From: Gammaproteobacteria bacterium
Lineage (GTDB): Bacteria > Pseudomonadota > Gammaproteobacteria > GRL18
Reading direction: 5' to 3'
Assembly: GCA_015488755.1 (NCBI GenBank)
Contig: WFNB01000064.1
Coordinates: 1 to 48,219 of the forward strand
Length of the DNA stretch: 48,219 bases
Part shown: positions 26,314 through 29,484 of the stretch, one piece after another
Layout: each line of letters starts with the position of its first letter
Position numbering within the stretch: position 1 is the first letter of the stretch
Program-made: the position numbers and the translations under genes
The notes under the pieces: model-generated
Database searches by the model: none
What the model was told of the DNA's origin: nothing
The model's input: the letters and a program-made list of their open reading frames with translations, nothing else

Positions 26314-26988
26314 ATGAATCGTTCTGATTTTTTAGACATAATTGGCTTTAGTCGTCATAAAACTGTTTATAAAGAAAAAATTATTTCTGGAATAGGCGGT
26401 TTTATTGGCATATTTGCTATTTTTATGACCAGCCAGTGGCTACTTGATCCTCAAGTGGCGGTATTTATTGTACCCTCAATGGGAGCCAGTGCGGTATTAT
26501 TATTTGCCGCCCCCCATGTCCCTTTTTCTCAACCTTGGAATGTGTTTGCGGGACATTTAGTTTCTGCTCTCGTTGGGGTTGCTTGTTGGCAAATCATCCC
26601 AAATTATGTCATAGCCGCATCGGCTAGTGTTGGCATTGCTATTAGTATTATGTATCTGTTACGCTGTACTCATCCCCCTGGGGGGGCAACTGCCTTAGCA
26701 GCCGTTATTGGCAGTGATAAACTTCATAATCTTGGGTACAGTTATGAAATAGCTCCTATCTTGTTAAATACCATCACCATTCTATTCGTTGCTATTGCTT
26801 TTAATGCCTTATTTAAATGGCGTCGTTATCCAGCTAAGTTATTTAGCCAGAAGAAAAAAGAACCCCTAAGCCGTCCAGCCATTAAGCATGAGGACTTTGT
26901 TTATGCATTAAGCCATATCGATACATTTGTTGATATTTCTGAAGAGGATTTGGTAAAAATTTATGAGCTGGCAGCAAAAAGGAAATAG
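26314..26988 (+). CDS. HPP-family integral membrane protein
   Basis: A 224-residue membrane protein with the HPP signature LRCTHPPGGATALAAVIG and four to five hydrophobic helices, followed by a ~45-residue cytoplasmic tail (from ~180). Family members have been linked to nitrite transport in plants and cyanobacteria, but the bacterial role is largely unproven. AAGGGTT precedes the ATG. It diverges from the HDOD gene across 80 bp. No CBS domain, which some members carry, is present. Confidence 0.9.
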   Translation: MNRSDFLDIIGFSRHKTVYKEKIISGIGGFIGIFAIFMTSQWLLDPQVAVFIVPSMGASAVLLFAAPHVPFSQPWNVFAGHLVSALVGVACWQIIPNYVIAASASVGIAISIMYLLRCTHPPGGATALAAVIGSDKLHNLGYSYEIAPILLNTITILFVAIAFNALFKWRRYPAKLFSQKKKEPLSRPAIKHEDFVYALSHIDTFVDISEEDLVKIYELAAKRK

Positions 26989-27024
26989 TCTTTATTTATT
27001 GAACTTATTCTTTTTAAAAAGGAC

Positions 27025-27053
27025 TTGATATGCAGGGGATATGCCCCTATAAT
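27025..27053 (+). promoter_or_regulatory. Near-consensus sigma-70 promoter upstream of rimP
   Basis: TTGATA (27025-27030), 17-nt spacer and TATAAT (27048-27053) form one of the best promoters in the window. The spacer holds a small dyad AGGGG-N5-CCCCT (27034-27048) that could be an operator. Transcription would start near 27060. Confidence 0.75.
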
Positions 27054-27059
27054 CTAGCC

Positions 27060-27268
27060 AATTATTTATGGGTGCTTGCAACGTAAATGTGGCAATTAGG
27101 TATACTGTAAGTAATCTAATATATTGTTTTTAAATTAATATATTACTGTTTTGTTTAGAGATTTTTTGAAATGTGATTCTAAGCGTTCTGTTTGCCAAGT
27201 GGTTTCAGAACAAATAGAAGTGAGATAAACAGAGAATTTTTGAAAGTGGGCCTATGGCCCATTTTTTA
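27060..27268 (+). ncRNA. Candidate structured noncoding RNA or rimP operon leader
   Basis: The ~209-nt segment from the strong promoter to a rho-independent terminator has no credible ORF. It contains three stem-loops: TAATATATT/AATATATTA (27117-27145), GTTCTG/CAGAAC (27185-27211) and the terminator TGGGCC/GGCCCA (27247-27261). It is either a free small RNA or an attenuated leader of rimP-nusA-infB. In E. coli a tRNA gene (metY) and terminators precede rimP; no tRNA fold is seen here. Confidence 0.45.
27247..27267 (+). terminator. Terminator 137 bp upstream of rimP
   Basis: TGGGCC-TAT-GGCCCA followed by TTTTTTATTT. Its place between a strong promoter and the rimP operon suggests either the end of a small RNA or a read-through (attenuation) point. 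Confidence 0.75.
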
Positions 27269-27404
27269 TTTGTGATAGATTATTTTTTAATTCCTCTTTA
27301 TGGCTAGTGTATTTAAAGTAGTAGCGTTATACAGTAGCGATGAAACAGGATTTAAAATTTTTATAAGGCCAAAGCCTTTATGAGACACTTGGTGAGACAA
27401 AAGC

Positions 27405-27872
27405 ATGACCATTAAAACTCAAGAGTTAGAAAATTTATTGGAGCCCGTTGTTAGCTCAATGGGCTATGAGTTTGTTGGTCTTGAATATTTATCTCAGGGA
27501 CGTCATTCAACACTGCGTATTTATATTGATTCCGAACAGGGTGTTGGTGTTGACGATTGTGCTAATGTGAGTCGACAGCTTAGTGCGGTCTTAGATGTTG
27601 AAGACCCTATTGCCAGTGAATATTCTTTGGAGATTTCTTCTCCAGGCCTAAATCGGCCACTATTTAAAATCGACCAATATGAGCGTTTTATTGGTGAAGA
27701 AGTGAAGTTTAAGACAATTCACCCACAACTGGATAATGGTCAACGCAAATTTAAAGGCACAATACATAGTGTAGAAATAGAAGATAATACCATTACATTT
27801 GATATTGATGATCAGATGTTAATTGTAATATTTACCGAGATTGATTCGGCAAATATTATTGCAAAATTTTAA
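27405..27872 (+). CDS. rimP: Ribosome maturation factor RimP
   Basis: A 155-residue RimP (YhbC) homologue needed for 30S maturation. The N-terminal domain has LEPVVSSMGYEFVGLEY and the conserved SRQLSAVLDVEDPI...YSLEISSPGLNRPL block; the C-terminal SH3-like domain follows. It opens the rimP-nusA-infB-rbfA-truB operon with 31 bp to nusA. Confidence 0.96.
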   Translation: MTIKTQELENLLEPVVSSMGYEFVGLEYLSQGRHSTLRIYIDSEQGVGVDDCANVSRQLSAVLDVEDPIASEYSLEISSPGLNRPLFKIDQYERFIGEEVKFKTIHPQLDNGQRKFKGTIHSVEIEDNTITFDIDDQMLIVIFTEIDSANIIAKF

Positions 27873-27903: not shown

Positions 27904-29484
27904 ATGAGCAAAGAAATTCTCCTAGTGGTTGATGCCGTTTCACATGAGCGTGGAATTGACAAAGACATCATTTTTGAGGCATTAGAGTCTGCATTAGCTT
28001 CTGCAACCAAGAAAAAAAGTGGCAAAGAAATTGATGTTAGAGTAGCGATTGATCGTGAGACAGGTGATTATGAAACCTTTCGCCGCTGGCAGGTGCTTGA
28101 TGATGAAGTTGATCCCTTTGAGTATTATGATAAGCAAGTGCTCCTTTCTCGTATTACTGAAAAACATCCTAATTTAGTGCCTGGTGATTTTATAGAAGAG
28201 CCGATCGACTCTGTTGAGTTTGGTCGTATTGCTGCCCAGACCGCTAAACAGGTTATTGTTCAGAAAGTAAGAGAAGCTGAACGCAAAAAAGTTGTTGATG
28301 AATATCAGCAAAGAGTGGGCGAAATGCTCTCTGGTACTGTTAAACGTATTGAACGAGGCAATGTTATTGTTGATATTGGTCAAGGTATTGATGCCATTAT
28401 AAAAAGAGAAGATATGATCCCAAGAGAACCTGTACGCAATGGTGATCGGATCAGAGGTTATTTATACGAAGTTAAAAGTCAAGCTAGGGGGCCGCAACTG
28501 AGTTTAAGTCGTATTTCTTCAGAATATTTAGTTGAATTATTTAAAATCGAAGTACCTGAAATCGGTGAAGGTTTAATTGAAATTCATAATGCTGCCCGAG
28601 ACCCTGGCTTACGCGCAAAAATAGCGGTAGAAGCCCATGATGAGCGTATTGACCCAGTAGGTGCTTGCGTAGGTATGCGTGGCTCACGAGTGCAAGTTGT
28701 ATCCAATGAGTTAGCTGGAGAGCGGGTTGATATTATTTTATGGGATGAAAATAATGCCCAATTTGTTATTAATGCCATGTCACCGGCAGAAGTAAAATCC
28801 ATTGTGGTTGATGAAGAACGTAATGCTATGGATATTGCGGTAGATGAATCACAGCTTTCTCAGGCAATTGGACGTAATGGACAAAATATTAAGTTGGCTT
28901 CTCAACTAACAGGTTGGGACTTAAATGTCATGACCGTTGAAGAAGCTGAAAACAAAGATGAAGAAGAAGCCCAAAAAGCATTGACACAATTGATGGATGA
29001 TTTAGGTGTTGATGAAGATTTGGCTATTCTACTGCTGAATGAAGGGTTTACTTCTTTAGAAGAAGTAGCCTATGTACCTCTGCAAGAAATGTTGGATATT
29101 GAAGAGCTAGATGAAGAAACTGTTATGGCTCTACGTGAAAGAGCTAAGGATGTTTTATTAACTAAAGCAATTTCAGATGAAGAGCAATTAGGCGATGCTG
29201 AGCCAGCTACTGATTTATTAGAGATGGATGGTATGAATGAGCAACTAGCTCATCAGTTAGCATCCAGAAATATCATATCAATGGAAGATTTGGCAGAGCA
29301 ATCAGTTGATGATTTGCTTGAAATTCAGGACATGGATGAGAAACAAGCTGCTGAGCTTATTATGACCGCACGTGCACCGTGGTTTGCCGAGGAAGAACTT
29401 GCTGATAACGAAGTAGCTAAAAGTGATGTTGTAAAAGATACAGTGATAGATGAACAAACTGTAGCTTCAGAAGATAAGAAGTAA
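27904..29484 (+). CDS. nusA: Transcription termination/antitermination factor NusA
   Basis: The 526-residue protein has the full proteobacterial layout: N-terminal RNA polymerase-binding domain (~1-130), S1 (EMLSGTVKRIERGNVIVDIGQ), KH1 and KH2 (VGACVGMRGSRVQVV; SQAIGRNGQNIKLASQLTGW), then two acidic repeats (around LMDDLGVDEDLAILLLNEGF and LLEMDGMNEQLAHQLASRN) that are typical of gammaproteobacteria. It controls pausing, termination and antitermination. The very C-terminus is a short acidic tail. Confidence 0.97.
   Translation: MSKEILLVVDAVSHERGIDKDIIFEALESALASATKKKSGKEIDVRVAIDRETGDYETFRRWQVLDDEVDPFEYYDKQVLLSRITEKHPNLVPGDFIEEPIDSVEFGRIAAQTAKQVIVQKVREAERKKVVDEYQQRVGEMLSGTVKRIERGNVIVDIGQGIDAIIKREDMIPREPVRNGDRIRGYLYEVKSQARGPQLSLSRISSEYLVELFKIEVPEIGEGLIEIHNAARDPGLRAKIAVEAHDERIDPVGACVGMRGSRVQVVSNELAGERVDIILWDENNAQFVINAMSPAEVKSIVVDEERNAMDIAVDESQLSQAIGRNGQNIKLASQLTGWDLNVMTVEEAENKDEEEAQKALTQLMDDLGVDEDLAILLLNEGFTSLEEVAYVPLQEMLDIEELDEETVMALRERAKDVLLTKAISDEEQLGDAEPATDLLEMDGMNEQLAHQLASRNIISMEDLAEQSVDDLLEIQDMDEKQAAELIMTARAPWFAEEELADNEVAKSDVVKDTVIDEQTVASEDKK

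Follow-up and report, generated by a model that had tools for sequence, protein, structure and literature searches.

The stretch of DNA analysed here (the window) comprises 48,219 nucleotides, positions 1 to 48,219 of contig WFNB01000064.1 (assembly GCA_015488755.1; GTDB lineage Bacteria; Pseudomonadota; Gammaproteobacteria; GRL18). A noncoding unit, consisting of a promoter, a predicted leader RNA and an intrinsic terminator, lies in it between the gene of an HPP-family membrane protein and rimP (Table 1). A preliminary description of this DNA had placed the unit before the rimP-nusA operon, and the Pfam identification of RimP and NusA agrees with this. The open reading frames that follow nusA are presumably infB, rbfA, truB and rpsO, as judged from sequence and gene order. 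The region of about 209 nt had also been described as free of open reading frames; apart from the HPP gene and rimP, the ORF list holds none longer than 41 amino acids that overlaps 26980-27410, which bears this out. The upstream neighbours vary among relatives: in the flanks examined, some of them from shortened loci, an HPP-like protein was found in 10 of 20 loci and an HDOD-like protein in 4 of 20; the host has both.

Table 1. Features upstream of and within the start of the rimP operon in the window.
Feature	Position	Strand	Basis or detail
HPP-family membrane protein gene, upstream of promoter	26314-26988		Pfam PF04982
Promoter: -35 TTGATA (27025-27030), 17-nt spacer, -10 TATAAT (27048-27053)	27025..27053	+	11/12 consensus bases
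Predicted leader RNA up to terminator, predicted start ~7 nt after -10	27060..27268	+	Fold -55.2 kcal/mol, z -4.85
5' hairpin (predicted)	27061..27115	+	Fold
Second hairpin, AU-rich (predicted)	27117..27145	+	Fold
Long imperfect hairpin adjoining terminator (predicted)	27155..27243	+	Position of two adjacent hairpins in many relatives
Intrinsic terminator, rimP-leader type, GGGCC-TAT-GGCCC-ATTTTTT	27242..27266	+	11 pairs, 5 GC, loop 3, then T-run
Terminator hairpin as predicted in leader fold	27244-27264	+	Fold
Possible ribosome-binding site GGTGAG	27391..27396	+	8 nt 5' of rimP start codon; read from sequence
rimP, first gene of operon	27405..27872	+	Pfam RimP_N 5.9e-30, DUF150_C 4.9e-12
nusA, presumed feedback regulator	27904..29484	+	Pfam NusA_N, S1, KH domains

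A 3-kb scan returned 9 promoter-like sites against 10.8 in shuffled sequences, and two sites scoring at least 11/12 were found across the whole window on both strands. By count alone the promoter is within chance, and its support comes from its conservation in relatives. Of 20 loci of the order, 19 contain TATAAT[CT]TAG; in the remaining one the contig breaks off within the leader. The sequence was also read in a further locus (L123), and the same promoter is found in 20 genomes of the order. In two genomes of other genera (G016 and G018), TATAAT was seen by eye within otherwise different sequence. The TTGATA-N17-TATAAT promoter of the preliminary description stands on its consensus match and on this retention. 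The AGGGG/CCCCT dyad noted in its spacer does exist in the window, but it is not conserved, since only 2 of 19 promoters, one of them the window's, can form at least four of the five pairs, and it was ruled out as a conserved operator. When the window's spacer was shuffled 2000 times, dyad arms of equal length arose in 85 cases. The spacer of one relative (L005) carries a longer dyad of different sequence, equalled in 4 of 2000 shuffles.

Terminator-like sites numbered 4 in the 3-kb scan against 1.5 (sd 1.4) in shuffles. The sequence GGGCCTATGGCCCATTTTTT at 27248-27267 conforms to the motif of Naville and Gautheret (2010), a GGGc(...)gCCC stem with a T-stretch. The bare short motif gave 5 matches in the host genome against 4 for the reversed control; because it is this common, the argument rests on place and conservation and not on the motif alone. 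Pairing of an antiterminator with the 5' arm of the terminator was searched for in 19 leaders, each with 200 single-base shuffles, and no conserved form was found. Two mutually similar leaders (L008 and L010) beat all but 1-2 of their 200 shuffles and a third (L007) all but 10, while the window gave no signal, with 80 of 200 shuffles as low. Immediately 3' of the T-run, at 27268-27285 and beyond the expected end of a terminated RNA, most members of the genus have ATTTGTG, and the mean identity over the 10 nt that follow the T-run is 0.74 in 18 leaders.

A DNA search of 57 genomes produced matches in 25. Within the host's genus and family, these covered promoter and terminator or the terminator alone; in other families of the class they were few, short and limited to the terminator. 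The sample of the order contained 24 genomes, one of which (G023) gave no RimP match. The other 23, of which 20 came from the DNA search and three were reached through RimP, all have the terminator before rimP, and rimP and nusA lie downstream in all 20 loci from the DNA search, host included. Mean identity in 18 leaders, with L003 dropped for its short body, was 0.77 for the promoter, 0.46 for the body and 0.96 for the terminator. In 18 of 19 leaders, 128-194 nt separate the -10 element from the terminator stem; in the remaining leader, that of G010, the distance is 48 nt. This leader (L003, on G010:C165) is a natural minimal form in which promoter, terminator and rimP linkage are retained.

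The distance from the T-run to the rimP start, with start codons set by alignment to the RimP of the window, spans about 20-137 nt in the 23 genomes, the window being the longest at 137 nt and the other 22 falling at about 20-106 nt. The shortest gaps are those of G016 (about 20-23 nt, its start being uncertain by one codon), G018 (26 nt) and G004, G019 and G020 (31 nt each). At about 20-31 nt, the gaps of these five genomes cannot accommodate a full separate rimP promoter, and in the window the promoter scan found no promoter-like site on the + strand between terminator and rimP. Transcripts of rimP may alternatively arise from a weak promoter that overlaps the terminator or from one within the variable body.

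The three hairpins and terminator announced in the preliminary description are found again in the predicted fold of 27060-27268, and none of 200 shuffles reached its energy. Two adjacent hairpins just 5' of the terminator were obtained for 13 of 17 leaders, whereas 714 of 3400 shuffles gave this layout (mean z -3.56). The test favours real sequences because the segment starts were picked from earlier folds, and the window is one of the four leaders that fail it. Left out were L003, whose body is short, L015 and L017, which nearly duplicate L013, the truncated L019, L124 and L125. Relatives show two-sided changes at the base of the second hairpin (CUGUUC/GAACAG and CUGCUC/GAGCAG). MAFFT alignments of the body, in which stems were misplaced, were set aside.

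A covariance model of the two-hairpin part, R1, was built from six leaders. On its own alignment it had a covariation score of 0.210, compared with 0.148 in shuffles, of which 19 of 500 scored as high; 87.0% of its paired cells could pair, a level reached by 61 of 500 shuffles and falling to 38-41% when the structure was slid. R1 found 5 of 16 loci outside its training set (L016, E 0.00014; L004, 0.0026; L014, 0.012; L006, 0.04; L011, 0.26), with wrong-place matches starting at E 0.044. It missed the other 11 of these 16 loci, the window included; a search of the whole window did not find the leader, and 27 of the 71 rimP loci outside the order gave zero matches. Many relatives share the layout, but covariation on six sequences is modest and the window does not fit the model. 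A two-hairpin structure is likely in the genus, whereas that of the window's own body is a prediction only. No conserved sequence signal was found in the variable hairpins.

ARAGORN detected no tRNA in the window and, in the flanks examined, none upstream of rimP in the loci of all 23 genomes of the order; a degenerate tRNA in the leader was rejected on these scans. They covered 33 loci (25 outside the order and 8 of the order), then 5 and 19 further loci of the order. Outside the order, 21 of the 25 loci have tRNA-Met, two have tRNA-Leu only (L089 and L096) and two have none (L100 and L108). The host genome gave a single initiator tRNA match (L115, G000:C47:6551-6627), on a different contig from the window; an open reading frame near it seems to encode a CRISPR-associated protein. 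The earlier remark that the unit replaces the metY tRNA arrangement of E. coli is correct, because the examined loci of the order lack the tRNA and the host's initiator tRNA match lies on contig C47.

A wider sample was drawn from the best 80 of 560 RimP-encoding stretches. Close relatives by RimP among these 80 are uncultured Gammaproteobacteria, including Thiohalomonas sp. and a Bathyaustriella thionipta symbiont. The motif GGGC-N2-8-GCCC followed by a T-run was looked for in the last 350 nt before rimP, or less where the locus was short, and was present in 69 of the 80 loci, with 0.09 expected; elsewhere within the same loci, 2 sites occurred in 628,320 bases. Nine of these loci (L035-L043), all with the motif, belong to genomes of the order that had been counted before, which leaves 60 of 71 outside the order; the loci are non-independent, many being from Vibrio and Pseudoalteromonas. 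A/G-TTT directly follows the T-run in 51 of the 60 motif-bearing loci outside the order. The 11 loci without the motif include two Bathymodiolus symbionts and similar loci. In L048, L049, L051, L062 and L068, two of them Bathymodiolus symbiont records, a C-rich then G-rich terminator after tRNA-Met is the sole one seen before rimP, and it may have taken over the place of the attenuator. E. coli K-12 has the same motif, GGGCTTTAGGCCCTTTTTTT, directly 5' of rimP.

Naville and Gautheret (2010; PMC2965389) describe a rimP-leader attenuator with a GGGc...gCCC stem and a T-stretch, 4-130 nt from the gene. In its general form, as given there, neither a visible antiterminator nor a larger conserved structure is seen; a protein that recognises the stem is argued for, with NusA as the best candidate, and a B. 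subtilis leader of 180 nt is mentioned. The window shares with this attenuator the stem and T-stretch upstream of rimP and the lack of a larger conserved structure and of a visible antiterminator, but differs in its spacing of 137 nt to rimP, slightly beyond the published range, and in having its own variable hairpins upstream. Like the E. coli metY-rimP-nusA-infB leader with its terminators t1 and t2, it has a promoter followed, immediately 5' of rimP, by a terminator with the same motif; unlike that leader, it lacks metY and the CCCCG..CGGGG terminator, and a single promoter was seen. The B. subtilis rimP (ylxS) leader, compared by description only, is of similar length and also has a terminator before the operon.

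The Rfam rimP leader (RF01770) has the same position and terminator type, but the window scores 14.9 bits against a gathering score of 47. None of 114 genomes of the class reached this cut-off, whereas 1 of 14 control genomes did. Weak matches occur in 66 of the 114 class genomes, the host having none, and the family is unusable across the class because such matches often lie on several contigs per genome. Other Rfam families gave eight weak matches, all far under their cut-offs. 6S RNA (RF00013) was rejected: the window has no match, and the genome's 6S RNA lies on another contig (G000:C112:92233-92441), a match of 209 nt against a model of 187 positions. In four genomes of the host's genus, 6S RNA falls below the Rfam cut-off. 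No paper on the leader of this order was found in a literature search whose coverage lay outside most subscription journals. A leader terminator with NusA as candidate regulator is a known idea, published in 2010 (PMC2965389).

These data, all drawn from sequence, suggest with a probability of about 0.85 that the unit serves the rimP-nusA-infB operon as its 5' leader and transcription attenuator. A conserved sigma-70-type promoter would start the transcript, which would then meet the near-invariant intrinsic terminator directly 5' of rimP. Since the terminator stands between promoter and rimP, transcripts from this promoter reach the operon solely by read-through. Many of them would end at the predicted terminator as an RNA of roughly 209 nt, and the fraction that continues past it would help to set the levels of RimP, NusA and IF2. 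NusA may strengthen termination and so feed back on its own synthesis. E. coli mutants with reduced NusA termination are reported to show raised operon transcripts (PMC6511841) and B. subtilis nusA is controlled by NusA-stimulated termination in its leader (PMC12288461); by analogy, NusA feedback would be the likeliest control of the leader. An E. coli reporter carrying the rimP 5' UTR and ORF fell in a Rho mutant, an effect left unexplained in that paper (PMC7815308); this result is no evidence about intrinsic termination. The hairpins between promoter and terminator would probably serve folding, pausing or RNase processing. It is conceivable, if doubtful, that in this order without the usual tRNA the lineage-specific hairpin pair next to the terminator either binds an operon product (NusA, RimP or IF2) or undergoes RNase cleavage, as a new read-through sensor on an old and widespread terminator.

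Other readings of the unit would give the terminator a smaller part. It is unlikely that the hairpins act mainly as RNase III-like processing sites governing how the operon mRNA decays and that the terminator is secondary. RNase III sites are reported in the E. coli leader (PMC6511841, PMC5371410), and a long hairpin is predicted in the window (27155-27243); against this, the conserved part is the terminator and not the hairpins, and G010 lacks most of the body. Less probable still is an independent trans-acting small RNA gene that simply lies upstream of rimP, rimP having another promoter. Such a gene would account for the unit's own promoter and terminator, the fold z of -4.85 and the two-hairpin layout in 13 of 17 leaders, and PMC5391140 lists the rimP leader with the attenuator-derived RNAs that associate with ProQ, so that accumulation of such leaders is possible. 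Against it stand the linkage to rimP in all 23 genomes of the order with a rimP found, a body that is the least conserved part (0.46) and measures only 48 nt in G010, and the gaps of about 20-31 nt in five genomes, too small for a full rimP promoter. The body model, which recovers the leader in just 7 of 24 genomes, gives no strong second copy, with weak off-site matches in three genomes (E 0.095, 0.24 and 0.6).

Of 25 loci scanned outside the order, 21 have tRNA-Met before rimP, whereas the order's own loci have none. This distribution, together with the position of the host's only initiator tRNA match on another contig, would also be expected of a relic, a promoter and terminator that remained without regulatory role after loss of an initiator tRNA gene. 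The higher identity of terminator (0.96) and promoter (0.77) than of body (0.46) points instead to continuing selection and makes a relic very hard to credit. Of the two possibilities raised in the preliminary description, the new independent small RNA is unsupported, the unit being tied to rimP in 23 of 23 genomes, and the leader reading fits the comparative evidence from these genomes and their tRNA-free loci. As part of an attenuator, a terminated leader RNA could accumulate.

The unit is a real conserved element and ordinary in kind, as built-in stop signals before this operon are known in many bacteria. The finding adds to the range of the rimP-leader attenuator an order of uncultured gammaproteobacteria in which the usual tRNA is missing, one relative being recorded as an animal symbiont. 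It also shows which parts of the arrangement are retained, namely promoter and terminator and not the stretch between them. The order thereby offers a clean natural case for establishing what recognises the conserved GGGC..GCCC stem.
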